A program made the translations under genes and the position numbers. From contig JAHEGU010000003.1 in the NCBI GenBank assembly GCA_024644945.1, forward strand, positions 1-64,000: DNA of 64,000 bases, read 5' to 3'. The notes beneath the pieces are model-generated. The model did not search any database. It saw only the letters and a program-made list of their open reading frames with translations, and was not told the DNA's origin. The DNA comes from Gammaproteobacteria bacterium. GTDB lineage: Bacteria > Pseudomonadota > Gammaproteobacteria > Arenicellales > Poriferihabitantaceae. Shown here one piece after another: positions 8,325 to 55,408 of this stretch (position 1 is the stretch's first letter; the number at the start of each line of letters is the position of its first letter).

Positions 8325-9290
8325 CTAGGAATCATGACAAGTCCGCGTTGCGCTATTGGTTGATCCGACCGCTTTATCAGCAATGATCTGCTGTTTGTCG
8401 AGCAGAATTATGACGTTACCCAAAATGGCCAGAATCAGACCAATGGTGGCCACAGTCGACCATTGGTAACCTTCAAAAAGTGTAGAAAGGGCAAGCGCCA
8501 CAATGGGAAAAATCACCATGGCATAAGATGACCGGGCTGCGCCGATTCGACCTACGAGGGTAAGAAAACACCCGAATCCAAATACGGTGGAGAATATAGA
8601 GAGCCAAAACAACCCGCCTATATACTGCGCCGAATACTCGAAACTGAATTCTATACCTGCAACCCAGATATAAACCCCCATCCATAACGCGCCCCACGTC
8701 ATGCCCCAGGCATTAGTTTGCAGAACGGGGTACTGCTGACGTTGAAAGCGAGCAGAACTGATCATGCCGATGGCGGCGCAAAGCGTGCCCAGCAGGGCGA
8801 GCCCTATGCCCCGAATGGTAGCACTGGTCCAGTCAAGTTGATTGATTTCCGGTGAGAATACCAACCCAATTCCAACTATTCCGGTAAGCGCCCCTACCAG
8901 CATCATGCCGGTGATTCTGTCCCGTAACACCAGATATCCGATCACCATATTAAAAATCTGAATACAGCTGAAAATTACCGAGATTAAACCGGTGGTTAAA
9001 TGAAACGAGGCGAAGTATATGGAGATGTAGTTGAGATTAAAAAGAAACAGGCCGATGAATGCAAATCGTGCATGATCTATAAGACGATAGTGCAGCGACT
9101 TGCGCCTAATCAGGCAATAGATCAGAAGCGTTAGCGCGGCGATCACAAAACGGTAGAACACGGATACCTGAGGCGCCACCTCTCCAAGCTGGAGTTTGAT
9201 CACATACCAGGACGTGCCCCAGATTAAGATCGTCAGTACGTATAGCGCGCTGTTAGGCATGGTGCTCGTAAGAGACAAAGCGCGCATCAT
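8325..9290 (-). CDS. EamA-family (DMT) transporter
   Basis: A 321-residue protein with ten hydrophobic segments in two EamA repeats, opening with ALYVLTILIWGTSWYVIK. The second repeat ends in the conserved LPIVALALSTLFEG-type stretch (here FPIVALALSTLFEGYQW, near residue 262). DMT/RhaT-like proteins export or take up small metabolites. ATG codons at residues 1, 2 and 11 are all possible starts; MPNSALYVL begins right at the first helix. It is convergent with the hydrolase and divergent from the aldo/keto reductase. Confidence 0.85.
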   Translation of the reverse strand: MMRALSLTSTMPNSALYVLTILIWGTSWYVIKLQLGEVAPQVSVFYRFVIAALTLLIYCLIRRKSLHYRLIDHARFAFIGLFLFNLNYISIYFASFHLTTGLISVIFSCIQIFNMVIGYLVLRDRITGMMLVGALTGIVGIGLVFSPEINQLDWTSATIRGIGLALLGTLCAAIGMISSARFQRQQYPVLQTNAWGMTWGALWMGVYIWVAGIEFSFEYSAQYIGGLFWLSIFSTVFGFGCFLTLVGRIGAARSSYAMVIFPIVALALSTLFEGYQWSTVATIGLILAILGNVIILLDKQQIIADKAVGSTNSATRTCHDS

Positions 9291-9420
9291 AGCCTATCCG
9301 CTGAATTTGCGGCTACTAAAAATAAGAACAATTTAGGGCATAAGACCAATCCTAAAATTTATTGCGCCTGTTATTAAAACTTTCATGGGATAATTAATCT
9401 TTTACTAAACTTAAAAGAAC

Positions 9421-10404
9421 ATGATGCATTTCAAATTACTCGGTCGCACCGGAGTGTACGTGTCCGAACTTTGTTTCGGCACGATGTCATTTGGCGGTGA
9501 TGCTGACGTCGCCGAATCGACCAGAATGTATAAGGCAGTGCGGGATTCTGGCATCAACTTCCTCGACTGCGCCGATTCGTATAGTGGCGGAGAAGCCGAA
9601 CGTATTCTGGGTAAGTTAATCACGGGGGAGCGCGATCAGCTGGTGATTACTTCCAAATGCGCCATGTCTACCAGTGAAGATGTCAACGATCATGGCGTCA
9701 GTCGTCGCCACATAAGAAACGCTGTTGAAGCCAGTTTGAAGCGGCTCAATACCGATCGACTTGACATCCTGTTGACTCATCGTTGGAGTCCGGTGACGCC
9801 GCTTGATGAGACGCTGCGTGCTTTGGAAGATCTGGTGCGTGATGGCAAGGTGCTCTACACCGGCGCCAGCAACTATTCGGCTTGGCAGGTGCAAAAAGCG
9901 CTGGGTATTTCGGCTCAACACAATTGGACCAGATTTGAGGTGATTCAGCCAATGTATAACCTGGTGAAGCGTCAGGCAGAGGTTGAAATTTTACCGATGG
10001 CAGCATCCGAGCAGCTAGGGGTAATGACCTATGGCCCGGTTGGCGGTGGGCTGTTAAGCGGTAAATATGCTTCAGGTAGAAAGCCGGAGAGTGGACGGCT
10101 TGTAGATAATGAGGAGTATTCTGCGCGCTATGATGAAAAGTGGGTGTATAAAACCGCCGGACGATTCGGCGAGTTTGCCAAGCAGAAGGGAATACATCCG
10201 GTGAGTCTAGCGGTTGCCTGGGTTAGAGCCAATTCTATGGTGACCTGTCCAATTATAGGTGCGCGTAATTTGGAACAGCTTTATCCTTCGCTTGATGCGC
10301 TCAATGTCGAGATGAACTCTGAGCTGTATGAGCAGGTGTCCGGACTGTCAAAGGAACCTGCCTTAGCCACAGACCGGTTAGAAGAAAAGACTGGTCTCAA
10401 ATAA
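9421..10404 (+). CDS. Aldo/keto reductase
   Basis: A 327-residue TIM-barrel oxidoreductase. It has the family opening LGRTGVYVSELCFGTMSFGG, the catalytic DCADSYSGGEAE (Asp and Tyr near residues 50-55), the lysine in ITSKC near residue 80 and LLTHRWSP near residue 122. The C-terminal NADPH-binding segment is CPIIGARNLEQL. It reduces a carbonyl with NADPH in the cytoplasm; substrate unknown. The FAD monooxygenase starts 10 bases after its stop, so the two genes likely form one operon. Confidence 0.88.
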   Translation: MMHFKLLGRTGVYVSELCFGTMSFGGDADVAESTRMYKAVRDSGINFLDCADSYSGGEAERILGKLITGERDQLVITSKCAMSTSEDVNDHGVSRRHIRNAVEASLKRLNTDRLDILLTHRWSPVTPLDETLRALEDLVRDGKVLYTGASNYSAWQVQKALGISAQHNWTRFEVIQPMYNLVKRQAEVEILPMAASEQLGVMTYGPVGGGLLSGKYASGRKPESGRLVDNEEYSARYDEKWVYKTAGRFGEFAKQKGIHPVSLAVAWVRANSMVTCPIIGARNLEQLYPSLDALNVEMNSELYEQVSGLSKEPALATDRLEEKTGLK

Positions 10405-25439: not shown

Positions 25440-25508
25440 GCTTTCAGTCGGGTCGACTCGGATATTGAAACTTGTTTTGTTGCAGAATAAGCTTGCTTAT
25501 TGGCTATA

Positions 25509-26402
25509 ATGAAAGCTATGGATGAACACCCGCAAAACGTGTCGGAACTTACGCTGGAGCAGACTGAGTTCTTTCAGAAAAATGGCTATTTAGTTGTAGA
25601 AGGGGCCTTGGAGTCCGGGTTACTCGTCAGGCTACAGCGACAATTCGGTAAGTGGGTTGAAGAGAGTCGGGGTCAGATTGAACCCTATGGCGAAACCTTC
25701 AATGGAAAACCTCGTTTTGACCTGGAACCGGGGCACTCTTCTGCCAAACCGGGCTTACGTCGGGTGAATGCGCCAGTGGAAATCTCCAAGGACTATTACG
25801 AAGCGATGTCCGAAAGTCGTGTTCCCAGCATGGTGGCCGACTTGATCGGCCCGGACGTCAAATTTCATCATAGTAAAATTAATTCCAAGCTGCCGGGAGG
25901 CCAAACTGAAGTTAAATGGCACCAGGATTTTCCTTTTACTCCGCATAGTAATGACGATCTGGTCACTGCATTAATCATGATCGATGATGTCACCGAGGAA
26001 AACGGTCCGTTGCAGGTGGTGCCTGGCTCGCATCTTGGAGACATTTATGGGCTTTGGCATGATGGGGTGTTTACCGGAGCGGTGGGACAAAGCGTTGCGT
26101 CTGATTGTGAGCAAGATGCCGTAAACTGTATTGGCCCGGCAGGGTCTGTCTGCTTGATGCATACGCGACTGCTGCATGGCTCCACGGCAAATCAGTCGAA
26201 GCACCCGCGCACCCTATTTATCTGCGTGTATTCCGCGGATGATGCGATACCCTGTTCCGCAAATCCCATGCCGAATCGCTATGAAGGCCAAATTGTCAGC
26301 GGTGAGCGCTGCGGAAGAATTCGCTGCACACCGTTTGAAATGATGACCCCCCAATTGCCCCTGACAGCTTCATTTTTCGACCAGCAGGCGGAGCAGCAGT
26401 AA
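25509..26402 (+). CDS. Phytanoyl-CoA dioxygenase (PhyH)-family Fe(II)/2-oxoglutarate oxygenase
   Basis: About 297 residues; ATG 25509 and 25518 are both plausible, and the track opens at TTG 25500. The double-stranded beta-helix iron site is VKWHQDFPF (HxD, near residue 138) with the distal histidine in RLLHGSTAN (near 221). An arginine after it (KHPRTLF) would bind 2-oxoglutarate. It is closely similar along its length to the PhyH protein at 50589-51503 (shared RFDxEPGHS, VKWHQDFPF, GPAGSVCLMHTR and SLWHDGVF-like segments). It probably hydroxylates a small metabolite, not phytanoyl-CoA; which one is unknown. Confidence 0.85.
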   Translation: MKAMDEHPQNVSELTLEQTEFFQKNGYLVVEGALESGLLVRLQRQFGKWVEESRGQIEPYGETFNGKPRFDLEPGHSSAKPGLRRVNAPVEISKDYYEAMSESRVPSMVADLIGPDVKFHHSKINSKLPGGQTEVKWHQDFPFTPHSNDDLVTALIMIDDVTEENGPLQVVPGSHLGDIYGLWHDGVFTGAVGQSVASDCEQDAVNCIGPAGSVCLMHTRLLHGSTANQSKHPRTLFICVYSADDAIPCSANPMPNRYEGQIVSGERCGRIRCTPFEMMTPQLPLTASFFDQQAEQQ

Positions 26403-36263: not shown

Positions 36264-36306
36264 TTTGATTTGGTACGCTGTGGCAACGAATCGCCACAGC
36301 GCGCCT

Positions 36307-37326
36307 GTGAAAACCAATCTCGAATCTGATTACTATATAACCCCATCGATTTTCTCGGTTGAGAGATTAAAGCTGTTCTCCACCACCTGGCAGTTGCTCG
36401 GACCATTATCACGTCTCGAGAATCCAGGAAGTTACGTTAGCGATGATATCGCCGGAATTAAAGTTGTCGCTATTCGTGGTCAAGACGGAACCCTTCGCGC
36501 TTTCCGTAATGTCTGCCGTCATCGCGGTGCGCAACTGATCGCGGATGGTGCAGGAAGTTGCCGCACCATTCGTTGTCCGTATCACAATTGGGTTTATGAA
36601 GATACCGGAGCCCTTAAGCATGCGCCCTGGTTTGGAGGGGATTCGGATTTCTCCCTTGATCAGTGGCCATTGCGACCGATACACATACAACAATGGCGCA
36701 ACCTGGTCTTTATTTGTATCGAGCCACATCAATTGTTGCTGGATCAACTTGGGGATACAGAAGCCGCGCTTGATGATGTTCTATTAGAAGACTACCACTG
36801 CGTCGATGAGCACAGGGTAGAATTCAGTGCGAATTGGAAAGTGTATACGGACAACTTCGTTGAAGGCTATCACATTCCTGGTATTCACCCTGAGTTTTAT
36901 GCTGCCATTGACTTCGAAAAATTCAGCACCACGGCTGACAACGGTCTAGTGTCCATGAGTGCGCCGACGAAAGAGGATCTGTTTTACAGGGGTCGGTGGT
37001 ACTGGATGTGGCCTAACTGGACGCTCTCGTTGTTCAATGGCGGTATGAATACTTCAAGAATAAATCCGCTCAGTCACAACCGAACAGAACTTATTTATCA
37101 TTTTTACTTTGACCAAAGTCTCTGTGAAGACACTGAATTTAAGGCCAACACGATTGCACGCAATCTCGAAGTTGTGCGCCAGGATTTTCAGATTTGTTTC
37201 GACACCCACAAAAATTATGTTTCGGGAAACTACCACCCCGGGCCTTTGTCTCCGAGACATGAGCAGGGTGTGATGTATTTTCAGGATCGGTATAGGTTAA
37301 ATATTGGTACTGAGAAGGATAACTAA
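36307..37326 (+). CDS. Rieske-type ring-hydroxylating/quaternary-amine oxygenase, alpha subunit
   Basis: A non-haem iron oxygenase of about 340 residues. The Rieske [2Fe-2S] site is CRHRG (near residue 72) with CPYHNW 17 bases-worth of residues later, and the mononuclear iron site is DNFVEGYHIPGIHPEF (near 190). The frame is open from TTG 36265, directly after the thiolase stop; GTG 36307 (VKTNLESDYY) best fits family N-termini. Relatives include choline monooxygenase, carnitine monooxygenase and glycine betaine demethylase alpha subunits. No ferredoxin reductase is adjacent. A role in quaternary amine breakdown is inferred from the surrounding content. Confidence 0.82.
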   Translation: MKTNLESDYYITPSIFSVERLKLFSTTWQLLGPLSRLENPGSYVSDDIAGIKVVAIRGQDGTLRAFRNVCRHRGAQLIADGAGSCRTIRCPYHNWVYEDTGALKHAPWFGGDSDFSLDQWPLRPIHIQQWRNLVFICIEPHQLLLDQLGDTEAALDDVLLEDYHCVDEHRVEFSANWKVYTDNFVEGYHIPGIHPEFYAAIDFEKFSTTADNGLVSMSAPTKEDLFYRGRWYWMWPNWTLSLFNGGMNTSRINPLSHNRTELIYHFYFDQSLCEDTEFKANTIARNLEVVRQDFQICFDTHKNYVSGNYHPGPLSPRHEQGVMYFQDRYRLNIGTEKDN

Positions 37327-37730: not shown

Positions 37731-39101
37731 ATGAAAGGTTTGATGACACTTGAAGAATTGAAAGCGGAGGTTAGTGAAGGATCGATCGATACAGTGCTCG
37801 TATGTCAGGTGGACATGCAGAGTAGACTGATGGGTAAGCGCTTTCATGCTGATTTTTTCATTGATAGCGCCTGGGAGGAGACTCACAGCTGCAACTATCT
37901 GTTGGCCACAGATTTTGAAATGGAAACCGTGGGAGGATACCGATCGACTAGCTGGGCGGCAGGCTATGGAGACTACACCATGAAGCCTGATCTCACGACC
38001 TTACGACGTGTTCCCTGGTTGGAGGGAACCGCAATGGTCCTATGCGATGTGCTCGACCATCATGGTCACGAAGATGTACCGCATTCTCCGCGAGCGATAC
38101 TTAAGAAACAGCTGGAGCGATTGGATCAGATGGGAATGAGTGCGATGATGGCTTCTGAACTGGAGTTCTTTTTATTTAATACCAGCTATACAGAGTGCCA
38201 GCGGGCAGGATATCGCGACATGGAACTTGCGGGCACTTACAACGAGGATTACCATATTTTTCAAACCACCAAGGAAGAGGATGTAATGCGTTCAATTCGC
38301 AATGGACTGCATGGTGCCGGAATACCGGTGGAATGTTCAAAAGGTGAAGCCTGTGCCGGTCAAGAAGAGATCAATATATTGTACGCGGATGCGCTGACTT
38401 CAGCGGATAATCATGTGATTGTAAAGAACGGTTGTAAGGAGATTGCATGGAGTAAGGGTAAGTCACTTACGTTTCTGGCTAAATGGGATACCGATAAGGC
38501 AGGGAGTTCTTCCCATATTCATCAGAGTTTATGGAATAAAAATCGAACCGAGTCTTTGTTTTATGATTCCGGCGCAGAATACGGTATGTCACCACTGATG
38601 CGAAGTTATCTGGCTGGGCTATTGTCCCATGCGAGTGAGATAACCTGTTTCTTAGCTCCATTCATTAATTCTTACAAACGTTTCCAGTCAGGAACTTTCG
38701 CGCCTACCCGGGCTATCTGGAGTCCTGATAATCGTACTGCAGGTTATCGTCTCTGTGCCGAAGATACCAAGAGCGTAAGAGTTGAATGCCGGGTAGGGGG
38801 CTCAGACCTGAATCCATATCTTGCCTATGCGGCGTTAATTGCCGCGGGCATCAACGGAATAGAAAATCAGCTCGAACTCGAGCCGGCCTTCCAGGGTGAC
38901 GCCTATCATGGCGAAGACTTGCGCGAAATCCCCGGGACTCTGCGTGCCGCAATTAGCGCGTTGGATGCATCTGATATGTTGCGCTCGGCGTTTGGAGATC
39001 AGGTCATTGACCACTATGTGCATGCTGCCAGTTGGGAGCAGAAGGAATTCGACAGGGTGGTGACTGACTGGGAAATTGCCCGAGGATTTGAACGGGCATG
39101 A
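37731..39101 (+). CDS. Glutamine synthetase-family gamma-glutamyl ligase
   Basis: A 456-residue member of the GS superfamily. It has SELEFFLF (metal ligands, near residue 143), ECSKGEACAGQEEINILYADAL (near 202), the ATP/metal motif KAGSSSHIHQSLW (near 261) and the phosphate-binding GTFAPTRAIWSPDNRTAGYR (near 322). The usual adenylylation-site region of housekeeping GlnA is missing, which fits catabolic gamma-glutamyl ligases such as PuuA or gamma-glutamyl-amine synthetases. The stump of an aldehyde dehydrogenase 17 bases downstream supports a lost gamma-glutamylation pathway for an amine. The amine is unknown. Confidence 0.85.
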   Translation: MKGLMTLEELKAEVSEGSIDTVLVCQVDMQSRLMGKRFHADFFIDSAWEETHSCNYLLATDFEMETVGGYRSTSWAAGYGDYTMKPDLTTLRRVPWLEGTAMVLCDVLDHHGHEDVPHSPRAILKKQLERLDQMGMSAMMASELEFFLFNTSYTECQRAGYRDMELAGTYNEDYHIFQTTKEEDVMRSIRNGLHGAGIPVECSKGEACAGQEEINILYADALTSADNHVIVKNGCKEIAWSKGKSLTFLAKWDTDKAGSSSHIHQSLWNKNRTESLFYDSGAEYGMSPLMRSYLAGLLSHASEITCFLAPFINSYKRFQSGTFAPTRAIWSPDNRTAGYRLCAEDTKSVRVECRVGGSDLNPYLAYAALIAAGINGIENQLELEPAFQGDAYHGEDLREIPGTLRAAISALDASDMLRSAFGDQVIDHYVHAASWEQKEFDRVVTDWEIARGFERA

Positions 39102-40597: not shown

Positions 40598-41692
40598 CTA
40601 TAGATAACTTCGCATCCTTTCCTCAAATGGGTTGGGACCTGGCTGCACATCAGGAAATTCAAGCAATCCTGCCTCATAGCGCCTGCGAAGATACGGAAAA
40701 TCCCGCAGCAACTGGCTGAGAAGGTGTTCGCCCCCAAGCACTGGTTCATAGTGTTTCTGCTTGTGGCGGAATTTCGGACAATCAACCGGCGCTACGACCG
40801 TGTCATAGTTGGTGGCTGCGAAAAACGGAACTGAAAACCGCTCTTCACCTTGGTTAATGACCCTGTGCGGAGTTGCCACCAGTAGACCACCGCTCCAAGC
40901 TTCCATCATATCGCCAATATTAAAGTAGAACGTATTGTCGATCGGGGGCGCATCAACCCAGTTTGAGTCAAGGTCCAGAATCTGCAAACTAGGTTTTCTG
41001 GAATGCAGAATTGTAAAGCACTCATAGTCTGTATGAGCACCCATATTAACGTCTGTATCGCTCGGTATGCGATCATTTTGTAAATAGTGAAGCAGACGTA
41101 ATTGAGAAACAGGTTTGTTTATTTGTTTGCGGAAGAATCGCCTGGGCAGACCGAGGCTCATTTCGAACGCTCGAAACATGGCCTGGGATACCCGGTTCAT
41201 TTCTTTGACATAACGCCCGAGTATGTAGCGAAACCCGGGTTGATCAGGCCACACATTTGGACCGAGCAACGGATTACCATTTACATGGTCAGGATCATCC
41301 GCAGGTAAATCCATTCCCATATCAAAGGCTTCGTAACGTCTCGGGCCTTGCTCATCAGCGTAGTCACCTTTTTCAGTGATCGGCACATATCCGCGATGAT
41401 TGCGAGAATGGCCAATATAGTATCTGTTCTTTTCCGCGATATCCTTGTTAAAGAAAAACTGTGCCTGCTCATACACCGCATCGGTCAGCGCCTTAGAAAC
41501 CATGTGGTTATACAAATACAGAAATCCATTCTGCATGGCGATATCACAAATTTGTGCCGCGGTGCTACGTTGAACCGAGGGGTTCCTGTCATACAACCCA
41601 CCAACGTCAACCATAGGTAGGGAGTCCTTGGTTGCGCGACGCGCCGGAAACGGCACGATTTTTTCATCTATGAACTCGTATGTGGTTTTCAA
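40598..41692 (-). CDS. Isopenicillin N synthase-like Fe(II)/2-oxoglutarate oxygenase
   Basis: A 364-residue oxygenase. The N-terminal DIOX_N-type segment is LPMVDVGGLYDRNPS (near residue 26). The iron site is MGAHTDYECFTILH (HxD, near 217) with the distal histidine in LLVATPHRVINQGEERFSVPFF, where RxS binds the 2-oxoacid (near 277-290). Members include gibberellin/flavonoid-type hydroxylases and bacterial relatives of ethylene-forming enzyme. The substrate is not known. It stands alone, 300 bases downstream of the histidine kinase on the same strand. Confidence 0.85.
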   Translation of the reverse strand: MKTTYEFIDEKIVPFPARRATKDSLPMVDVGGLYDRNPSVQRSTAAQICDIAMQNGFLYLYNHMVSKALTDAVYEQAQFFFNKDIAEKNRYYIGHSRNHRGYVPITEKGDYADEQGPRRYEAFDMGMDLPADDPDHVNGNPLLGPNVWPDQPGFRYILGRYVKEMNRVSQAMFRAFEMSLGLPRRFFRKQINKPVSQLRLLHYLQNDRIPSDTDVNMGAHTDYECFTILHSRKPSLQILDLDSNWVDAPPIDNTFYFNIGDMMEAWSGGLLVATPHRVINQGEERFSVPFFAATNYDTVVAPVDCPKFRHKQKHYEPVLGGEHLLSQLLRDFPYLRRRYEAGLLEFPDVQPGPNPFEERMRSYL

Positions 41693-43991: not shown

Positions 43992-44554
43992 TATGCTATC
44001 GATTACCCCCGTAACCTTTAATCATGCCTGTATTTGGTTCAATTTTAAAGTAAAAAGAGCCAAATTCAGGGATTGGAACGAATTTAGAAAAAATAGCGAA
44101 ACCTCTTCTAATTCACTGAAAATTATATATAAATCATATGGTTATCCAAATATTATTCAGATTTATCGCAAACAATAAAGGCTTGCTGTTTCATGGGCAT
44201 TTTTACCGATGCCGACCCGATCAAATGGCGAAAATGGCGTGGCTTTTTGCTTGGTTGGAGTCTTTCAAGGTGTTGAAGCTCCATTTCTCGCCAAGGACTC
44301 GTTAATGTATTTCTTGGCCCGACCACAGTCCGGAACAGCAGGACCTCAGGCAAGGTGCGCAGAATCGCTCTGATTGAGGGCGTTTTTATCTAATATTGTG
44401 GCGGCAAACCGCTATGTACTCAGGCACTGTTCAGCTACTATCCGCTGGAAGAGATTAGAGGCCTTCTAGTGGTCCCAGTTAAGTTGATGTCCATTCTCGA
44501 CCGGAGATGCAGCCAGGCTTTTCATCAACCCGGTATCCAGCCGACGAGGTAAAG
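43992..44554. other. Intergenic stretch before the sox operon
   Basis: About 560 bases between the divergent kinase and soxB. It is AT-rich near the kinase and more GC-rich near 44200-44500, where short frames (for example from ATG 44192) read without stops for 25-40 codons but match nothing I know. It may hold decayed coding DNA plus the sox promoter. Confidence 0.35.
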
Positions 44555-45820
44555 ATGACGCGATATAACGCGTGGAATGTTTTAAAAAATGGAATTACCG
44601 GCCAGAAAGGCTGGGACAGGGCGTGGCGTGATCCGCAACCCAAAGATAGTTATGAGATTGTCATCGTTGGGGCGGGATTACATGGTCTGGCTACGGCGTT
44701 TTATCTTGCTAAGAATCATGGCATTCGCAATATTGCGGTGGTTGAAAAGGGGTGGCTTGGAGGTGGAAACGCCGGCCGCAACACGACGATTGTCCGATCA
44801 AATTACATGATGCCGGGCAACCGGTTCTTTTACGAACACTCGCTCAAGTTGTGGGAGAACCTGAGTCACGAGTTGAATTTTAATGTCATGTTCAGCCAGC
44901 GTGCGCATATTTCTTTGCTGCACAGCCCCGCGGCGCGAGACGCCGCAGCCCGACGCTACAATACGATGCGGTTGACCGATACCGGTGCGGAGCTGTGGGA
45001 TCTAGAAACGCTTAAACGAGAGGTGCCGCATTTAAACTATGACAACGCACGCTTCCCCATAATTGGTGCTGCGGTGCAAAGTCGCGCAGGAAGTGCACGC
45101 CATGATGCGGTGGCTTGGGGATATGCGCGGGGGGCAGATCAGTATGGTGTGGATATCATCCAGAATTGCGAAGTCACTGGAGTGCGGCGAGAGAACGGGC
45201 GGGTAACAGCGGTGGAAACCACTCGGGGTGATATCGGTGCCGCCAAGGTGGGGTTTGCGGTCGCTGGGAATACCTCAAGGCTTTGGCGGATGGTGGAACT
45301 TGGCAAACTCCCAATCGAAACTCACAAGCTCCAAGCTTTCGTGTCAGAACCTTTAAAGCCGCTGCTGGATCAGGTGGTGGTATTCGGTGTAGGCGGTGCC
45401 CACTTTTATATCTCACAGTCTGACAAAGGTGGGATGGTATTCGGGGGCGATCTCGACTGGTATAAATCTTATGCTCAAAGGGGCAATCTGCCGATTGTTC
45501 AAGACGTCGCGGAAGCCGCCACCTCAATACTGCCTTGTCTGGGCCGGGTCAGGTTGCTGCGACACTGGTCCGGGGTAATGGATATGTCGATGGATGGTTC
45601 CCCCTTTATATGCAAAACCCCTGTGGAGAATCTCTATCTAAATGCCGGCTGGAATTATGGTGGGTTTAAGGCAACACCCGCATCGGGTTGGTATTTTGCG
45701 GATTTGATCGCCAATGACAGACCGGATCCGGTCATTGAAAATTTTGATCTGGGTAGGTTTTCGCGAGGTGTCAATATTGATGAGCGCGGCGCGGGACCAG
45801 ATCCCAAGCTGCACGGGTAG
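44555..45820 (+). CDS. soxB: Sarcosine oxidase subunit beta
   Basis: About 421 residues from ATG 44555, which has a GAGG ribosome binding site; the track start is 48 bases earlier. The FAD-binding motif is IVIVGAGLHGLATAFYLAKN (near residue 37) and the covalent-flavin region is GGGNAGRNTTIVRSNYMMPG. The C-terminal FAD/substrate region is DGSPFICKTPVENLYLNAGW, with NYGGFKATPASG. As the beta subunit of heterotetrameric sarcosine oxidase it carries the covalent FMN and oxidises sarcosine to glycine, passing the C1 unit to tetrahydrofolate. It is first of soxBDAG. Confidence 0.93.
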   Translation: MTRYNAWNVLKNGITGQKGWDRAWRDPQPKDSYEIVIVGAGLHGLATAFYLAKNHGIRNIAVVEKGWLGGGNAGRNTTIVRSNYMMPGNRFFYEHSLKLWENLSHELNFNVMFSQRAHISLLHSPAARDAAARRYNTMRLTDTGAELWDLETLKREVPHLNYDNARFPIIGAAVQSRAGSARHDAVAWGYARGADQYGVDIIQNCEVTGVRRENGRVTAVETTRGDIGAAKVGFAVAGNTSRLWRMVELGKLPIETHKLQAFVSEPLKPLLDQVVVFGVGGAHFYISQSDKGGMVFGGDLDWYKSYAQRGNLPIVQDVAEAATSILPCLGRVRLLRHWSGVMDMSMDGSPFICKTPVENLYLNAGWNYGGFKATPASGWYFADLIANDRPDPVIENFDLGRFSRGVNIDERGAGPDPKLHG

Positions 45821-45843
45821 ACCGACGAGAATAGTTTAACTTC

Positions 45844-46128
45844 ATGATACGAATAAAGTGCCCCTTCTGCGGTGAGCGCGACCATAGTGAATTTACATAT
45901 GGTGGCGATGCCTCGATCGTCTATCCCGCTCTGGATGCAACAGCGGAAGAATGGCATGAGGCCGTTTTTATGCGGGAGAATATTCGGGGTATGCAGACTG
46001 AAACCTGGCATCACGTGAATGGATGTCGCATGTGGCTGATTGTGCAAAGAGATACCATGACCCATGAAATACGATCGGTGAGGCCTGCCCATGAAGGGCT
46101 GGCCGGCGTTCTGGAGGATGACCGATGA
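45844..46128 (+). CDS. soxD: Sarcosine oxidase subunit delta
   Basis: A 94-residue protein beginning MIRIKCPFCGERDHSEFTYG, the usual zinc-binding opening of SoxD, with further ligands in WHHVNGCRMWL. It stabilises the heterotetramer. Its stop codon overlaps the soxA start by 4 bases (ATGA). Confidence 0.94.
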   Translation: MIRIKCPFCGERDHSEFTYGGDASIVYPALDATAEEWHEAVFMRENIRGMQTETWHHVNGCRMWLIVQRDTMTHEIRSVRPAHEGLAGVLEDDR

Positions 46129-49115
46129 GCGCCAGGAGATTGCCAAGTGGCGGTCGGATTGACCGCAGTCAGGTTCTCAGGTTTACCTGGGACGATCGAG
46201 TGATGTCCGGTCACCCAGGAGACAGTCTCGCTTCTGCTTTGATGGCCAATGGAGAGCAGGTGCTTGGACGCAGTTTTAAATACCATAGACCGCGCGGGGT
46301 GATGTCCGCGGGTGTAGAAGAATCCGGAGCGATGGTGACCGTTGGAGAGGGCGCGCGTCGCGATCCAAACGTCAAAGCGCCGATGCAGGAGCTTTTTAAC
46401 GGGCTTACAGCCACCGGACAAAATGCCTGGCCGAATGTGCGGTTTGATTTTGGTGAGGTCAACGACATGCTGGGCCGCTTTCTCGTTGCTGGTTTCTACT
46501 ATAAAACTTTTATGGGGATTCCCCCATTTGAGTGGGGCAAGGGCACCGGTGCATGGATGTGGTACGAAAAGTTTATTCGCAAAGCTGCGGGTATGGGAAG
46601 CGCGTCAAGGGAGGCTGATCCAGATCAATACGAGCAGGGTCATGACTTCTGCGATTTGCTGGTGGTGGGATCTGGGCCAGCAGGCATGTCCTCGGCTCTG
46701 GCCGCTGCAGAAGCCGGCCTTGACGTAATGCTAGTTGAGCAGGATTGGGAGCTTGGTGGTAGTTTTCTATCGCAGACTGGTAGTGAATCGAAAAATAGAT
46801 GCGCGGATATGGTGGCGTCACTCAACAATGCAGGGGTGCGTACAATGCTCAGAACTACTGCGTTTGGACTCTATGATTACGGCGTCGCAGGGTTGCTGGA
46901 ACGGGTGACAGATCATCTGCAGAGTCCGGACCCTTATCAGCCCCGTCAAAGATTCTGGACCGTGCGGGCTAAGCAAACGATTTTAGCCAGTGGTGCCTTG
47001 GAGCGGCATATTGCATTTGGTAATAACGATCGGCCGGGAGTCATGAATGCTGCTGCAGGCAGAGCCTATGTAAATCGTTATGGAGTATTACCGGGAGAGC
47101 GCGTTATCGTTGCGACGAATAACGACTCCGCCTACCACAGTGCGATTGATCTTGCTTCTGCCGGTGCAGAAGTGACCCTGCTCGATGCGCGCTCAACATT
47201 GCCGGGTGAGCTTTCAGAGCGAATCGGAGAGGCGGGCGTCAGCTTAAGAACAAATACAGTCCCGCTAAAGACGAAAGGCCGCTTGTCTGTAAACGGGCTG
47301 GAATTAGCTGTTATTTCAGTTAATGGCTGGAGAGCCCGAGGAGCTGAGTCTTGTGATGCCGTGCTGGTATCTGGTGGCTGGTCACCTGTGGTCAATCTGA
47401 TGTCACACCGCGGAGTGAAACCGAAATGGGACGCTGAAAACGCCTGTTTCCTGGCGCCATCCCGCCACGAAACGATTCAAATGGCAGGTTCTGCGGCGGG
47501 GTACTGGCGCGCGGCGGACTGCGAATTGTCGGGCATCGCAGCTGGGTCTGTGGCGGCCAGTGCGCTCGGTAAAAAAGCCAAGTCTCTCGTGCTGCCCCCG
47601 ATCGGCGGTTGGGATTTGGCGATCAAACCCGTTTACGAAGTCAAAGTGCCGGGAAAAAAATTGAAATGCCTGGTAGACCCACAGCATGATGTGACTGCTG
47701 AAGATATTCGGCTCGCCCATCGCGAAGGCTTTGTTTCCGCTGAGCACCTGAAACGTTACACCACACTGGGGATGGCAACAGATGGCGGTAAGATGGGCAA
47801 TGTCATCGGGCTTGCGCTGATGGCAGAAGCGTTAGGTCGGGAAATTCCTGAAGTCGGCACGACAACTTTTAGACCGCCTTACACACCGGTTTCAATTGGC
47901 GCCTTGCGTGGGCGCAGCGTGGACGAACATTTTCGACCATTACGTCGCACACCGATGCATGACTGGAACTTGTCTAATGGGGCTACGATGACGATGGCCG
48001 GTCTATGGCATCGTCCGTGGTATTTCGCACGCCAGAGCGAAACTATCAGCGAGGCCTATGTCAGAGAAACTGAGACAACCAGAAAAACAGTAGGGCTGTG
48101 CGACGTCACTTCTCTTGGAAAAATTGCAGTGCAGGGCCCGGACGCTACTGAATTTTTAAACCGTATTTACACCAACCCATTTGCCAAACTTCCTATTGGT
48201 AAGGCGCGTTACGGCATCATGCTAAGGGACGACGGCTTCGTGATGGATGACGGTACCACATGGCGATTGTCCGAGACAGAATACTTCATGACCACAACAA
48301 CGGCACACGCTGGTAAAGTCATGGTGTGGTTGGAGGAACTGCTGCAGACCCGTTGGCAAGACCTGAAAGTTCACGTCACATCGGTATCTGAGCAGTGGGC
48401 CGGGTGTGCGGTAGCCGGTCCCGAATCGAGAAAGGTTCTGGCGACTTGTGTTGAGGATGCATCGGTTATGGATAATGATGCGTTTCCCTTTATGGGTGTG
48501 GTTGAAACCAAATTGAAGGGTGGTATTCCATGCCGCATTGCAAGAATCAGCTTTTCTGGTGAGCTGGCCTATGAAACATATGTGCCCTCGGACTATGCTG
48601 TTGCTATGATGGATCTGTTGTGGCCCCAAGCAGAACAATCCGGCGGTTGTTTATATGGTTTAGAAGCCTTGGGTGCGATGCGAATAGAGAAGGGTCATGT
48701 CACCGGTGCGGAGCTGGATGGAAGGGTAACCATTGAGGACGCTGGGCTGGGTAAAATGGCGTCGCCAAAGAAATCTTTCATTGGTAGCGCACTACGCAAC
48801 AGACCCGATATGACTAGAGAAGACCGGCCTAAGCTCGTCGGTATCTTTCCGAAAGATCGCAGCCAGACCTTCAATGCGGGTGCAATTCTTTGCAGTGTTG
48901 AGCAGGTTTCCGGACTGGGGGAGGGCTGGATTACCGGGGTTACCCACTCGCCGGTTATGGGGCATTGGATTGGCATTGGTTTTATTTCAGGCGGCCATGA
49001 AGCCTGGGCAGAAAGAACCGCAATCGCGGCGGATCCTGTTAGAAAAGGTAACACCGAGGTGGAAATCGTTTCACCACATATGTATGACCCAAGTGGGGAG
49101 AAGATGTATGGTTGA
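46125..49115 (+). CDS. soxA: Sarcosine oxidase subunit alpha
   Basis: A 996-residue subunit. An N-terminal 2Fe-2S-ferredoxin-like domain (RFTWDDRVMSGHPGDSLASAL) is followed by an NAD-binding domain, LLVVGSGPAGMSSALAAAEA near residue 177. A C-terminal aminomethyltransferase (GCV_T) domain starts near residue 610 (RRTPMHDWNLSNGATM... LCDVTSLGKIAVQGPDA), where tetrahydrofolate accepts the methyl-derived C1 unit. It binds NAD and folate in the complex. It overlaps soxD by 4 bases and soxG by 8 bases. Confidence 0.95.
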   Translation: MSARRLPSGGRIDRSQVLRFTWDDRVMSGHPGDSLASALMANGEQVLGRSFKYHRPRGVMSAGVEESGAMVTVGEGARRDPNVKAPMQELFNGLTATGQNAWPNVRFDFGEVNDMLGRFLVAGFYYKTFMGIPPFEWGKGTGAWMWYEKFIRKAAGMGSASREADPDQYEQGHDFCDLLVVGSGPAGMSSALAAAEAGLDVMLVEQDWELGGSFLSQTGSESKNRCADMVASLNNAGVRTMLRTTAFGLYDYGVAGLLERVTDHLQSPDPYQPRQRFWTVRAKQTILASGALERHIAFGNNDRPGVMNAAAGRAYVNRYGVLPGERVIVATNNDSAYHSAIDLASAGAEVTLLDARSTLPGELSERIGEAGVSLRTNTVPLKTKGRLSVNGLELAVISVNGWRARGAESCDAVLVSGGWSPVVNLMSHRGVKPKWDAENACFLAPSRHETIQMAGSAAGYWRAADCELSGIAAGSVAASALGKKAKSLVLPPIGGWDLAIKPVYEVKVPGKKLKCLVDPQHDVTAEDIRLAHREGFVSAEHLKRYTTLGMATDGGKMGNVIGLALMAEALGREIPEVGTTTFRPPYTPVSIGALRGRSVDEHFRPLRRTPMHDWNLSNGATMTMAGLWHRPWYFARQSETISEAYVRETETTRKTVGLCDVTSLGKIAVQGPDATEFLNRIYTNPFAKLPIGKARYGIMLRDDGFVMDDGTTWRLSETEYFMTTTTAHAGKVMVWLEELLQTRWQDLKVHVTSVSEQWAGCAVAGPESRKVLATCVEDASVMDNDAFPFMGVVETKLKGGIPCRIARISFSGELAYETYVPSDYAVAMMDLLWPQAEQSGGCLYGLEALGAMRIEKGHVTGAELDGRVTIEDAGLGKMASPKKSFIGSALRNRPDMTREDRPKLVGIFPKDRSQTFNAGAILCSVEQVSGLGEGWITGVTHSPVMGHWIGIGFISGGHEAWAERTAIAADPVRKGNTEVEIVSPHMYDPSGEKMYG

Positions 49116-49668
49116 TCGGATTTCAGCCCTGGATGGGCACTATCAGTCTGGACGCTTCGGAACCGATGGGGACACTGGCGTCTGTCTGCAGCTGATCAGG
49201 GATTTGCAGTTGCAGCAGGTCGCTGCCTGGCCCGACACGATAAAAAAGACCGCGGATGCTGCTGCCAAAGCTGCGGGTGCTGATGAGGCGCCGGCGCCTG
49301 GTGGTGCGATTAATTGTGAGCACGGTGCGATACTGAGAATAGAGCCACTGAAGTGGTGGCTTGTCGGTGCGGATGCGTTACAGATCGATCCTGAACTAGG
49401 AGCCACCCTAGATTTGTCACACTCGCGAACTCAGATTCGCATAACCGGACCTAAGTCGACTACACTTTTAAACCGACTGCTCCCTCTTGATTTACGTAAC
49501 GCAAATTTTCGTGAAGGAGTGGTGGCATCATCCGCAATGCATCACGTAGGCGTGACCCTTTGGCGCTCCACAGCGGGCTATGAATTGTTCATTCCAAGAG
49601 GATTTGCGTTGTCCTTATGGGAAGTCCTGTTCGAATCGGCGCTGCAATTTGGCGTTGAGGTTGTTTAA
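49108..49668 (+). CDS. soxG: Sarcosine oxidase subunit gamma
   Basis: About 186 residues from ATG 49108; the track frame extends far upstream inside soxA. It has the GCV_T-related SoxG fold: ILRIEPLKWWLVGADA, DLSHSRTQIRITGPKSTTLL and the end HHVGVTLWRSTAGYELFIPR with a GFALSLWEVL helix. Last gene of soxBDAG. Its end overlaps the convergent GrdB-like gene by 4 bases. Confidence 0.9.
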   Translation: MVDRISALDGHYQSGRFGTDGDTGVCLQLIRDLQLQQVAAWPDTIKKTADAAAKAAGADEAPAPGGAINCEHGAILRIEPLKWWLVGADALQIDPELGATLDLSHSRTQIRITGPKSTTLLNRLLPLDLRNANFREGVVASSAMHHVGVTLWRSTAGYELFIPRGFALSLWEVLFESALQFGVEVV

Positions 49669-50579
49669 AGAGGATTTGCCCGTCCTTCAGTTTGTTTTTT
49701 CTTTTTGGCGATCGCTCTATCTTGATCAAATTTTTCTCGCAGGCTGCGGCGCTCTTGTTCTGATAGCCGCTCAATATTATAAAAATCGTTCTTCCAGTTT
49801 TCGCTCTCCGACCATTGGATTGGGGAAACTAAGGTAGTTCGAGGAGCTGTAGCGGTATCCAACATTGTCAGCGCCAGGTCCAAAGTCTGACATTGCGAAT
49901 TATCGTCTCCCGGTTTCCCCGCTGCGTTACCTAAGGGAAAGTCGCTGAACATGAACCTTGGTATGCCAATGTGTTCGACAATATCTTTAGCGCAGCCCAA
50001 GACCACCGTGGCAATTCCATTTTGTTCAAGATGTCTGGCGGCCAGGCAACAGCATTGATGGCAAACAGGACAATTCGCTACTAACACGGCAGCATTCACA
50101 TCGTCCTCCAGAAATCGCTCCAGGAGCTTGGGTGCATCACGTTCCATGGTCGTAGTTTGGCTCCGGTTGGTGGGCAATCCATAGAAGCGTCTGGATACAG
50201 CGCCAATTCTGCCCGACGCTGCGGCAAGTTTTAATTGTGTTAACGGAAACCAGGTGTTCTGATCTTTAGCCGTTGTGTGTTTGCGATCGTATCCTACGTG
50301 GGAAATATAGACATTAGGATTTCCTTCCGTCGGCGAAGCATAAACGTTATAAAACTTTGCGGCGGCGTTGTAAGCTGCGCCCGGGCCCTGATCACCGCAT
50401 TCTTTACAGAACAATGCTGCGGTGGTTACCAGACCGATCCGTGCTTGCGACAGTGGCTTTTCAAGGTGAGAGAAAGGCACCTCGTCAAAATGCGCCCATT
50501 GGTAAGGATGTTCGTAACCGAGAGCCAGATAGTAGGACCTGATGCGCGCTAAATAGGGGAGTGGCTGGCCGATATCCAT
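49665..50579 (-). CDS. Glycine/sarcosine/betaine reductase B-like protein, cysteine form
   Basis: A 304-residue protein related to the B subunits of glycine, sarcosine, betaine and D-proline reductases. Family landmarks are ARIGLVTTAALFCKECGDQG (near residue 46), a central Rossmann-like part, and VLVANCPVCHQCCCLAARHLE (near 165), where selenoproteins carry Sec. GIATVVLGCAKDIVEH and RFMFSDFPLGNAAGKPGD follow. No in-frame UGA is needed. Partner A and C subunits, required for the anaerobic reductases, are absent from the window. Its neighbours are soxG and a PhyH oxygenase 9 bases upstream on the same strand. Function in an aerobe is unknown to me. Confidence 0.7.
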   Translation of the reverse strand: MDIGQPLPYLARIRSYYLALGYEHPYQWAHFDEVPFSHLEKPLSQARIGLVTTAALFCKECGDQGPGAAYNAAAKFYNVYASPTEGNPNVYISHVGYDRKHTTAKDQNTWFPLTQLKLAAASGRIGAVSRRFYGLPTNRSQTTTMERDAPKLLERFLEDDVNAAVLVANCPVCHQCCCLAARHLEQNGIATVVLGCAKDIVEHIGIPRFMFSDFPLGNAAGKPGDDNSQCQTLDLALTMLDTATAPRTTLVSPIQWSESENWKNDFYNIERLSEQERRSLREKFDQDRAIAKKKKQTEGRANPL

Positions 50580-50588
50580 CGCCAGATT

Positions 50589-51503
50589 CTACATTCCCTG
50601 CTGAGACTGCTGATTGAAAAAAGAGGCTCCGGAGGGAATTTCCGGCGCTTCAAGAGTCTGGCTTTGAACCCTAATTTTGCCCGGGTCCTTACCATATACG
50701 ATTTGGCCGGAGTAAACGCTGGGCACCGGATTGGGCGAAAGTGGGATGGCGTCTGCGCTCGTCAGATTGGCAATAAATAGTGTGCGCGGTGAACTGGTTC
50801 GATTAATTGTAGAACCATGCAGTGCGCGGGTGTGCATCAGACAAACTGATCCCGCGGGGCCAGTGCATTCGACCGCGCTAGATTCGCACTCTCTAGCAGT
50901 CTTATCTTCTGCAGCTCCAATAAAAACCCCGTTGTGCCATAGGGAATGAATCGAACCACGATGGGATTCGGGCACTATCTTGGGTGCACCATTTTCATTG
51001 CTGACATCGTCGAGATACAACATCGCGGTGACGCAGTCATCATTAGTATGAGGATCAAAAGGAAAGTCCTGATGCCATTTCACAACGGACCCTGAACCCG
51101 GCATCTTGCTGTTTAGTTTAGCGTGGTGAAAGCGAATGTCAGGGCCAATGATACACGCTGCGGCCTCAATGAATGCGCCCTGCTGCAACATGCCTAGCCA
51201 TTCCGCTGATAATTCTTCAGGGGCCGCTATTCGGCGAAGAGCAGGAGAGTCGAAACTGTGACCAGGCTCTACGTCAAAGCGCGGGCGACCATCGAGCATT
51301 TTTCCGAAGGGTCCACCGTGCTGTCTCGATAACTCAACCCAGGCATCGAAGCTGCGTGTTAATGATCGCAGCAGTGACTTGGACACTGCGTGTTCTAGCA
51401 GCACAAAACCCTGCTGTTGATAATTATCGATCTGTTCTGGAGAGAGCATATAAGGATATTCACTATATTTCGAGGATTGTAGTATCGCTGCGTCGATTTG
51501 CAA
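50589..51503 (-). CDS. Phytanoyl-CoA dioxygenase (PhyH)-family oxygenase, second copy
   Basis: Up to 304 residues; MLSPEQIDNYQQQGF at residue 19 is an alternative start. The iron site is VVKWHQDFPF (near residue 158) with the distal histidine in RALHGSTINR (near 238). Long stretches match the paralogue at 25509-26402, including GRPRFDVEPGHS, HHAKLNSKMPG and GPAGSVCLMHTR. It forms a two-gene unit with the GrdB-like gene, 9 bases apart, and is divergent from the M20 amidohydrolase 50 bases away. Together these suggest one pathway for an N-methylated or quaternary amine. Confidence 0.85.
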   Translation of the reverse strand: MQIDAAILQSSKYSEYPYMLSPEQIDNYQQQGFVLLEHAVSKSLLRSLTRSFDAWVELSRQHGGPFGKMLDGRPRFDVEPGHSFDSPALRRIAAPEELSAEWLGMLQQGAFIEAAACIIGPDIRFHHAKLNSKMPGSGSVVKWHQDFPFDPHTNDDCVTAMLYLDDVSNENGAPKIVPESHRGSIHSLWHNGVFIGAAEDKTARECESSAVECTGPAGSVCLMHTRALHGSTINRTSSPRTLFIANLTSADAIPLSPNPVPSVYSGQIVYGKDPGKIRVQSQTLEAPEIPSGASFFNQQSQQGM

Positions 51504-51553
51504 CTGTTAGAATAAATTTAACCCATAAATATTGCACACTACTGAGGTTATTA

Positions 51554-52786
51554 ATGGAGCAAACGAATATTCAGATTAATGCCGAACGCCTTTGGGATTC
51601 ACTAATGGAAATGGCGACAATTGGTGCCACCGACAAAGGTGGAGTGTGTCGATTGACGATGACCGATTTAGATCAACAAGGCAGGGAACTACTGTTACGC
51701 TGGACTGATGAGTTAGGCTGCGCGCACCAATGCGACGCGGTAGGTAATCTATTTATTCGACGCCCAGGTCGAAACAAAGAGCGCCCGCCTGTGATGACAG
51801 GAAGCCATCTCGACAGCCAACCAACCGGTGGGCGATTTGACGGGGTTTATGGAGTATTAGCGGGTTTGGAAGTATTGCGAACGCTTAACGATCATAATGT
51901 TGAGACCGAGGCACCCTTAGAGCTGGTGGTTTGGAACAACGAAGAGGGAAGCCGTTTCTCGCCACCAATGATGGGTTCTGGAGTATATACGGGTATCTTC
52001 GAGTTAGATTGGGCTTATCAGATAGAAGACGAAGCTGGTACCAAGGTCAAACAGGAGCTGGACCGGCTTGGTTGGATCGGCTCACGTCCATTCGGTCAGG
52101 CGGTCGACTGCTACTTCGAAGCGCATATTGAGCAAGGTCCTGTGCTTGAAAACGAGGGCAAGACAATTGGCGTTGTCAGCGGTGGACAAGGTCAGCGCTG
52201 GTTTGAGTTAAACGTCTATGGGCAGGAGGCCCACGCCGGGCCAACCCCGATGCCTCTGAGAAAGGATGCGTTGCTGTGTGCCTCAGAGATGATTCAAATG
52301 ATCAATCGACTGGGACTGGACAATGGGCCGGATGCCTGCGCAACCTGCGGTCTGATCAAGGTGCTGCCGGGCAGTCGTAATGTGATACCGGGCCATGTAT
52401 GGGTCACTGTCGATACCCGACATCCAGATGACGATGTGCTGATACGGATGGAGAGTTTGCTGCGTGAATCGCTGGGAAAAATTGCAGACAAGCATCGGTG
52501 CACCTTTGATCTGCAAAACTTCTGGATTTCACCGGCTACCCCGTTTGATCAAGACTGCATCGCTCTGGTCAGGGAGGGTGCTGAAAAAAGTGGTTATCCG
52601 TACCGTGAGATGATCAGCGGTGCAGGGCATGATGCGGTCTACATGGCAAGAAAATATCCTGTAGCGATGATATTCGTCCCTTGTGAAGGTGGCATCAGTC
52701 ACAATGAAATTGAAAACGCCACGTCTGAAGATATCGCCGCGGGCTGTCAGGTACTGTTTCACGCCGTGCGTTCGCGAGCTGGTTAG
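51554..52786 (+). CDS. M20 amidohydrolase/hydantoinase-type Zn-dependent hydrolase
   Basis: About 410 residues from ATG 51554; the track frame runs 127 codons further upstream across the divergent PhyH gene and is not used. Metal ligands are visible in MTGSHLDSQPTGGRFDGVYG (near residue 80), NNEEGSRF (near 128), AHIEQGP (near 192) and ISHNEIENAT (near 380). This subfamily includes N-carbamoyl-L-amino acid hydrolase, allantoate amidohydrolase and ureidoglycolate hydrolase, all cytosolic and cleaving an N-carbamoyl bond. Exact substrate uncertain; in this setting an N-carbamoyl amine or creatinine-type intermediate leading to sarcosine is possible. Confidence 0.85.
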   Translation: MEQTNIQINAERLWDSLMEMATIGATDKGGVCRLTMTDLDQQGRELLLRWTDELGCAHQCDAVGNLFIRRPGRNKERPPVMTGSHLDSQPTGGRFDGVYGVLAGLEVLRTLNDHNVETEAPLELVVWNNEEGSRFSPPMMGSGVYTGIFELDWAYQIEDEAGTKVKQELDRLGWIGSRPFGQAVDCYFEAHIEQGPVLENEGKTIGVVSGGQGQRWFELNVYGQEAHAGPTPMPLRKDALLCASEMIQMINRLGLDNGPDACATCGLIKVLPGSRNVIPGHVWVTVDTRHPDDDVLIRMESLLRESLGKIADKHRCTFDLQNFWISPATPFDQDCIALVREGAEKSGYPYREMISGAGHDAVYMARKYPVAMIFVPCEGGISHNEIENATSEDIAAGCQVLFHAVRSRAG

Positions 52787-52796
52787 TCGCCAGAGA

Positions 52797-53597
52797 TTAA
52801 GGTGCCTGTAACCACTTTACCGGGTCCGCGAACTCTGGTCGAAAATAGCAGATCATTCTGCCGTCGGAGCCGGCGCTCGCGTTCTTTCCCCAGGGGGCCA
52901 TGCCATGCAGGGCCAGACGATGTATCACAAACACCTGCCCTGGTTTGACCGCGATCTCGACGCGCTTACATTGCTCAAATATTCTGCGGCGCAGCGCGTG
53001 ATAGATCTCGGTCAAATCGATTTCTTCCCAGCCGTCCGGGGTGTTTACATCGAGCACGCTTCTGAAAGTTTTACGAGCGATCTCATGGGAGCCATTCCAC
53101 ACTACTAACGGGGAGGCGTCATGACTGAAGTCGACCATCGGAATGCCCAGAATAAACCCATGGTACTCGCGTAAAAATCTACGCTTCTCAGGTCCGATTC
53201 GCAGTAGTCCATCAATATGTGCAGCGTCGCGCTTCAGGCGGTAGCGAAAGGCGGTTTCCGGTTCATCGTCCGAAACTTTCGGATAGCCCGGGTAACACAC
53301 AGAAATCTGTGCCTTATCCCAGCGGATCGGTTGAATATCCAGTTGCCTGGATACAAACTGTACCGCTTGTCCGCTAATAGGCGGGCCGCCGTTGACCTCT
53401 CCTCGTTCATTATTCTCGAGTGCATTGACGCCGGCGAACCAGGTGCCGTCATGCCTTAGCCACTGCCGGTTGGCTGGATTGGTGACCGCCTGTCTGCATG
53501 ACGCAAGAGATGATTTTCTCCAGGATTCGATAGCCGGATCCGGTTCAAATATTCTCCATCCCTGGGTGAAAAAATTTTTTGTCGCTGATAAGGTCAA
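52797..53597 (-). CDS. PhyH-like Fe(II)/2-oxoglutarate oxygenase, divergent type
   Basis: A 266-residue protein unlike the other two PhyH copies. A probable iron site is DAAHIDGLLRIGPEKR (HxD, near residue 124) with the distal histidine in FVIHRLALHGMAPW (near 225) and an arginine in GRMICYFRPEF. It lacks a signal peptide. Convergent with the M20 gene, divergent from the FAH gene. I would place it in the PhyH superfamily with unknown substrate. Confidence 0.65.
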   Translation of the reverse strand: MTLSATKNFFTQGWRIFEPDPAIESWRKSSLASCRQAVTNPANRQWLRHDGTWFAGVNALENNERGEVNGGPPISGQAVQFVSRQLDIQPIRWDKAQISVCYPGYPKVSDDEPETAFRYRLKRDAAHIDGLLRIGPEKRRFLREYHGFILGIPMVDFSHDASPLVVWNGSHEIARKTFRSVLDVNTPDGWEEIDLTEIYHALRRRIFEQCKRVEIAVKPGQVFVIHRLALHGMAPWGKNASAGSDGRMICYFRPEFADPVKWLQAP

Positions 53598-54397: not shown

Positions 54398-55408
54398 ATG
54401 TCTGTCGCCTTCCTCGACTGTCGCCAGGAATTGTCCGAGATCAGAAAGACGCCGGATGCGCGCAGGGCATGGTTGGCGCACGAGATAACCGACCAGGATT
54501 GGGTGGTGCCTCTTGAGCAGGCAATGTTGAGTGAAATTAATAAGTTATCTGAGTTTATTAAAGAAAATCCGCTACAGAATCTGCAGCGCAATGTGAAGGA
54601 TTTCAAATTGCCTGCATGCGCGGCGACGATGGCGCATATGCAATCAATTTTGGATGACGGGGTGGGTTTTGCAGTGCTGGACAGGTTGCCCATGGATGAT
54701 TATCCGATCGATATCATGGTCGAAATTTACTGGCTGCTCGGTCAGTTAGTTGGCCGGCCGGTGGCCCAGAAATGGAATGGGGAAATGATCTATGACGTTC
54801 GCGATACCGGTGAGGCTTATGGCTATGGCGTGCGCGGCTCCCACACCTCGGTTGAACTTGTGTTTCACACCGACAACGCCTTCGCAAAGATGGTGCCGGA
54901 TTATGTAGGGCTGCTATGCCGTTACCCGGCTCCAGAGGGAGGTGTCAGTCGATTCTGCAGTCTTTACACGGTGCACGATCGGATGATGGGCAAGTATCCG
55001 AAATCACTGCAACGCCTTTATCAGCCCATGCTGTTTGATCGTCAAAAGGAACACAGAGAAGGCGCGCCAAAGGTCTGCCTGGCGCCTTACTTCAGCTGGA
55101 TTGGCAATCGACTGAATGCGCGTGCAAATTCACAGCTGGTGCGCAAGGGTTATGCGGTCGTGGATGAAACCATGGATACCGAACTAGCCGATGCGCTTGA
55201 AGCCATCGATGAAGTCTGCGCCGATCAAGACATCTGGTTTGAAGGGCCGCTGCAACGTGGGCAAATACAGTACTTGAACAACCACGAGGTTGGACATTAT
55301 CGCAGTGCATTTTCCGATCACAGTGACCCGGACCACAAGCGCCACCTGTTTAGACTATGGCACCGAGAGCGTGGGTCCGCCTGTTATGATGGTGGTTATC
55401 TGGAGTAA
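54398..55408 (+). CDS. TauD/gamma-butyrobetaine hydroxylase-like oxygenase
   Basis: A 336-residue TauD/TfdA-family Fe(II)/2-oxoglutarate oxygenase. The iron site is LVFHTDNAFAKM (HxD, near residue 156) and the distal histidine with the 2-oxoglutarate-binding arginine is in QYLNNHEVGHYRSAFSD and RHLFRLWHRERG (near 290-325). This C-terminal pattern is shared with clavaminate synthase-like and gamma-butyrobetaine-type enzymes. It likely hydroxylates a small amine or acid. Second gene of the FAH operon. Confidence 0.83.
   Translation: MSVAFLDCRQELSEIRKTPDARRAWLAHEITDQDWVVPLEQAMLSEINKLSEFIKENPLQNLQRNVKDFKLPACAATMAHMQSILDDGVGFAVLDRLPMDDYPIDIMVEIYWLLGQLVGRPVAQKWNGEMIYDVRDTGEAYGYGVRGSHTSVELVFHTDNAFAKMVPDYVGLLCRYPAPEGGVSRFCSLYTVHDRMMGKYPKSLQRLYQPMLFDRQKEHREGAPKVCLAPYFSWIGNRLNARANSQLVRKGYAVVDETMDTELADALEAIDEVCADQDIWFEGPLQRGQIQYLNNHEVGHYRSAFSDHSDPDHKRHLFRLWHRERGSACYDGGYLE

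Follow-up and report, generated by a model that had tools for sequence, protein, structure and literature searches.

What function might a relative of the anaerobic PrdB and GrdB reductase subunits perform when its gene lies between those of an oxygen-dependent enzyme and a sarcosine oxidase? The question is raised by a 64,000-nucleotide stretch of DNA, referred to here as the window, from a gammaproteobacterium of the order Arenicellales and family Poriferihabitantaceae (assembly GCA_024644945.1, contig JAHEGU010000003.1). A preliminary description of this locus took the arrangement as a hint of a previously unknown aerobic reaction in the metabolism of betaine or sarcosine, one that would rely on thiol or metal chemistry. 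Here, we report a comparative analysis of the gene, its homologues and their genomic neighborhoods.

The sarcosine oxidase cluster soxBDAG spans positions 44507-49668 of the window on the plus strand. The beta and alpha subunit genes, soxB (44507..45820) and soxA (46125..49115), score above the cut-offs of TIGR01373 (614.8 bits, cut-off 529) and TIGR01372 (1214.9 bits, cut-off 1164), respectively; the gamma subunit gene soxG (49105..49668) matches TIGR01375 with E 3.6e-15, and the delta subunit gene soxD (45844..46128) was assigned from its open reading frame, CPFCG motif and position. On the minus strand, convergent with soxG and overlapping it tail to tail by 4 bases, is the prdB-like gene (49665..50579), which encodes a protein of 304 amino acids. 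Because the two genes lie on opposite strands, they do not form an operon and are not co-transcribed. The prdB-like gene is preceded on its own strand, across a gap of 9 bases, by a gene for a PhyH-family 2-oxoglutarate/Fe(II) oxygenase, and the next gene on the plus strand encodes an amidase of the M20 hydantoinase/carbamoylase family (51554..52786; NF006769, 613.9 bits). The open reading frames and profile matches thus confirm the gene order of the preliminary description, with a cysteine-type GrdB/PrdB relative 9 bases from a PhyH gene and beside soxBDAG.

The PhyH open reading frame as called (50589-51503) also encodes 304 amino acids. Its relatives are homologous only from about residue 19 onward, so translation probably starts at the ATG of that residue (51449), giving a minus-strand gene at 50589..51449. 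The product matches PF05721 with E 1.5e-24, and the residues H144-x-D146...H229...R240 are intact in it and invariant in 13 homologues. It is one of several paralogues in the window genome, and the group is multi-copy per genome in this bacterial family. Five genes for oxygenases of the iron/2-oxoglutarate type, this one included, occur within 30 kb of the window (25500-26402, 40598-41692, 50589-51449, 52797-53597 and 54398-55408). Upstream of sox, the window also contains genes for a GbcA-like Rieske oxygenase (36265-37326; 135.8 bits, cut-off 670) and a glutamine-synthetase-like protein (37731-39101), and at 59643-62376 genes for a BhcR-like IclR regulator (172 bits, cut-off 350), a TauE-type permease and a TctC-type receptor follow in a row.

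The product of 49665..50579 is the cysteine form of an uncharacterized, widely distributed relative of the PrdB/GrdB subunits, and it stands alone. It passes the cut-off of the GRDB profile PF07355 (37.2 bits against 22), with a match confined to profile positions 202-346 of 347, and the window genome yields no other GRDB match. The match to TIGR04483 (PrdB) is significant (E 2.5e-24), but its 86 bits lie far below the equivalog cut-off of 300, and the specific glycine, sarcosine and betaine models TIGR01917, TIGR01918, NF040794 and NF040795 yield 47-55 bits against cut-offs of 65-800. When the family profile was aligned with PrdB of Peptoclostridium acidaminophilum using hhalign, the two were related with 99.8% probability and 28% identity across residues 34-256, and the clostridial UxxCH motif fell on CPVCHQ of the PrdB-like family. 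PDB sequence searches with the single protein and with the family profile returned nothing meaningful, and Foldseek comparison of the predicted structure with PDB and BFVD gave no match at E < 0.001; the fold comparison therefore neither confirms nor refutes membership in GRDB.

Homologues were sought in whole genomes and in the GTDB contig set. Those with 50-60% identity come from the same genus as the window, from Burkholderiales/Zoogloeaceae, Rhodoplanes, Roseomonas and Haematobacter, and from several other lineages of the phylum; remoter ones share 31-45%. Conservation at 50-60% identity across so many lineages indicates that the genes are real. The hosts are Pseudomonadota and, as far as their genes show, aerobic. 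We define the stand-alone PrdB-like family by a length of about 300 amino acids, the CPxCHQ motif, flanking invariant residues, Cys/Sec exchange and the lack of a partner subunit, and the window protein fits this definition.

The lack of partners is judged from searches of 13 draft genomes that carry prdB-like genes, including the window genome, in which neither PF09338 (the pyruvoyl proprotein GrdE/PrdA) nor PF04723 (GrdA) had a match; the same searches gave matches in clostridial and enterococcal records used as positive controls. With the partner subunits absent and the equivalog cut-offs missed, the earlier view that this is not a classical glycine reductase stands, and it applies equally to sarcosine, betaine and proline reductases. 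The window genome yields only partial, elongation-factor-type matches to SelB, in keeping with the cysteine form of the protein, and two of its sister genomes encode full SelB. Sister genomes G018 (contig C50, locus L121, 4065-5300 and 11255-12418) and G020 (contig C71, locus L122, 6728-7900) also contain a further group of distant PrdB-like genes, whose UPxCTRAV motifs include a TGA codon. These paralogues, which the window genome lacks, adjoin selB and an upstream selA-like gene in two sister genomes, and the selenocysteine machinery and the UPxCTRAV paralogues seem to travel together.

The motif of the window protein reads N169-C170-P-V-C173-H-Q-C-C-C, and the codons for C170-P171-V172-C173 (50061..50072, minus strand) mark the predicted active site. 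C170, P171, C173, H174 and Q175 are invariant among 33-40 aligned homologues, with selenocysteine counted as cysteine. In 7 of 40 homologues, codon 170 is TGA, so that the motif reads UPVCHQ, and each of these seven genes has a short-loop hairpin 3' of the TGA that is weaker in most of the cysteine genes, a combination that fits real selenoproteins, although the shuffling z-scores of the seven range from -1.6 to -4.1. The maximum-likelihood tree implies at least three changes of state, with one selenocysteine protein inside a cysteine group and one cysteine protein inside a selenocysteine group. Such repeated exchange identifies residue 170 as a working nucleophile or redox residue; as read from the alignments, it demonstrates a redox or nucleophilic role for this residue, not the reduction of a carbon substrate as such. 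In the confident AlphaFold2 model (mean pLDDT 94.0, pTM 0.92), strand 163-167 leads into the CPVC turn and this into helix 171-186, which is the arrangement expected for a reactive thiol at the N-terminus of a helix.

The other cysteines fare differently. The CKEC pair (residues 58-61; 50397..50408, minus strand) is private to the window protein, its two cysteines being replaced in most aligned homologues by Asp (position 58) and Lys (position 61). Nor are the additional cysteines that follow HQ conserved among homologues. A metal site assembled from CKEC and NCPVCHQCC was rejected for this reason. Of the chemistry envisaged in the preliminary description, the thiol part is thus likely, given that the first cysteine of CPVC is interchangeable with selenocysteine.

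We then turned to the genomic context of the family. A PhyH profile built from 13 relatives detected no PhyH gene near the prdB-like gene in any of the 33 other loci compared, which represent 17 lineage groups and include a few short contigs with some flanks cut. A PhyH gene adjoins the prdB-like gene in the window genome only, and sox genes do so in the window's genus only; outside this genus, no sox subunits were found near prdB-like loci. A 28% match in locus L052 to the aminomethyltransferase-like part of SoxA was not accepted as evidence of sox. Elsewhere, on a Roseomonas plasmid (L067, 11968-14353), the prdB-like gene is convergent with a gene for the protein adenylyltransferase SelO.

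Four of the five genomes of the genus have the prdB-like gene at the soxG end of the cluster, in differing company. In sister genome G019, it is directly preceded by two IalB genes; in G018, it stands alone, with divergent lipase and DUF1989 genes adjoining; and in G020, its end is found next to soxG at a contig edge. Sister genome G017 (96% complete) has a Rieske gene directly before soxB, then soxBDAG and, about 170-200 bases on, the M20 amidase gene, with neither a prdB-like gene nor PhyH at the junction and no prdB-like gene elsewhere in the genome. This empty junction and the differing contents in the other genus members show that the soxG-M20 junction is a variable site. It has the appearance of a small insertion hotspot (window 49668-51554, compared with the empty L117 10687-10886 of G017, L047 6604-9011 and L048 7524-10830). 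Among 24 genomes of the bacterial family, most encode sox beta at >= 80% identity (about 20 when slightly lower matches are counted), and five carry a prdB-like gene, one of them a contig-edge fragment and another a frameshifted copy. The frameshift-split gene of G021 (L049, 3223-4174) has as its neighbor a Rieske oxygenase gene that seems to be split too, and the two are either pseudogenes or products of assembly error.

The survey thus uncovered no conserved neighborhood for the prdB-PhyH pair, the very outcome that the preliminary description had named as refuting its suggested functional pairing; the PhyH gene is an incidental neighbor in the window genome. Nor is the new betaine or sarcosine step sustained, with sox adjacency restricted to one genus and G017 maintaining its sox cluster without either gene: the soxBDAG neighborhood is a position common to the genus, not one required for function. 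Retention of this position in four of five genus members could nevertheless reflect more than inheritance.

The alternatives can be weighed against this background. That PhyH and the PrdB-like protein act jointly, oxygenating and then reducing an intermediate of a new aerobic betaine or sarcosine pathway, would account for the 9-base gap on a shared strand (likely one transcript), the intact oxygenase residues, the location of soxBDAG and a GbcA-like Rieske oxygenase gene in this region, and the divergent Rieske gene (33% identical to that of the window) beside the damaged prdB-like copy that a different genus of the family carries. We nevertheless consider it very improbable, in view of the 33 other loci without PhyH, the sister genomes in which the prdB transcript carries IalB genes or nothing, the Rieske-sox-M20 order that G017 retains without either gene, the lack of sox beside loci outside the genus, and the many sox-bearing genomes of the family that do without prdB. 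The sox junction itself might instead suggest that the protein is a thiol peroxidase or aldehyde scavenger that protects against the H2O2 and formaldehyde released by sarcosine oxidase. CxxC/UxxC motifs are typical of peroxide-handling enzymes, and the gene adjoins sox in most of the genus; however, homologues in other lineages are not located next to oxidases, no match to a peroxiredoxin or thioredoxin fold was obtained, and G017 has sox without the PrdB-like gene, all of which makes such a detoxifying role unlikely.

Outside the genus, the neighbors of prdB-like genes point weakly, as gene context, to organic-acid catabolism. A class III CoA-transferase gene directly follows the prdB-like gene in six of eight loci of family f217 and in the separate family f233 (55% identical), and genes for FAA hydrolases, sugar-acid dehydratases, TctC receptors, crotonase and acyl-CoA ligase adjoin it in other lineages. 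The order of prdB-like gene and CoA-transferase gene can be seen in L054 (6765-8921) and L062 (7974-10170), which represent two families, one with the cysteine and one with the selenocysteine form; in L062, a 424-amino acid open reading frame (8967-10241) was dismissed as a shadow frame, the real CoA-transferase gene there being 8977-10170. A specific role in the catabolism of carboxylic or sugar acids, with 2-keto, enoyl or CoA-activated acids as substrates, would be compatible with a thiol oxidoreductase, but such neighbor families are common in these genomes, and the CoA-transferase pair, the only one conserved across two families, may trace to a single inheritance; we regard this role as doubtful.

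The explanation that we favor, and hold to be rather probable, is that the PrdB-like protein, a soluble cysteine representative of a PrdB/GrdB-related family, works on its own as a thiol oxidoreductase that acts through C170 and C173 and is recycled by thioredoxin. In this scheme, the C170 thiolate at the N-terminus of the helix (a selenolate in the selenocysteine homologues) would attack an electrophilic center of a small acid-type substrate, C173 would resolve the adduct by forming a disulfide with C170, and the enzyme would be restored by thioredoxin or another dithiol of this kind, with no need for a pyruvoyl subunit or acetyl-phosphate chemistry. We infer the direction of the reaction, the electron donor and the substrate class. 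A broader proposition, which we advance only tentatively, is that the stand-alone family as a whole is an aerobic thiol/selenol enzyme in its own right, with a fold new to PDB, and performs PrdB-like reductive cleavage without a pyruvoyl partner. Its substrate would be an acid from general carbon catabolism, which the conserved CoA-transferase pair suggests may be CoA-activated.

Recognizing the prdB-PhyH pair as a local accident makes it unnecessary to look for a betaine step, for which the comparative evidence offers no support. The interest rests instead in the family, with its interchangeable selenocysteine and cysteine forms, its independence from the subunits that its anaerobic cousins need, and no solved structure. 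The cysteine members require no selenocysteine machinery, and their expression and assay would be easy.

Searches of the literature on PrdB- and GrdB-like proteins in aerobes and on the family accessions retrieved only selenoproteome surveys, clostridial papers and papers on fluoroacetate in Synergistota; no paper testing the function of the stand-alone family was found, and nothing relevant surfaced for the sox/Rieske/PhyH combination. A 2026 review, in its accessible part, describes the PrdB family via proline reductase only. PrdB relatives that stand alone outside the clostridial pathway, with either cysteine or selenocysteine, were already known: surveys of ocean metagenomes catalogued them in 2005 and 2008. 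According to the available portions of these surveys, the Sargasso Sea set contained 42 PrdB-type selenocysteine genes (PMC1088965) and the GOS set 235 selenocysteine and 110 cysteine PrdB genes (PMC2398784); PrdB-type proteins are among the commonest selenoprotein families in both. These UxxC proteins, likened here by description only, occur in selenocysteine and cysteine forms as does the window family, and the same portions give the name PrdB without neighborhood or function.

FarB of Synergistota (PMC10838667), also compared by description only, is a GrdB-like protein proposed to reduce fluoroacetate, with a selenol attacking the C-X bond; unlike the window protein, it is anaerobic and accompanied by a GrdE-like partner and a radical SAM enzyme. 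The beta subunits GrdB, GrdF and GrdH (PF07355, TIGR01917/01918, NF040794/5) share the C-terminal half of the profile with the window protein, which lacks the N-terminal half, stays under every specific cut-off and is encoded in a genome without GrdE and GrdA. D-proline reductase PrdB (TIGR04483) differs in having Sec where the window protein has Cys; the latter also has N- and C-terminal extensions, scores 86 bits against 300, and comes from a locus with an oxygen-using neighborhood and without PrdA or a prd operon. Yet the two are homologous over residues 34-256 at ~28% identity, with UxxCH aligned on CPVCHQ.
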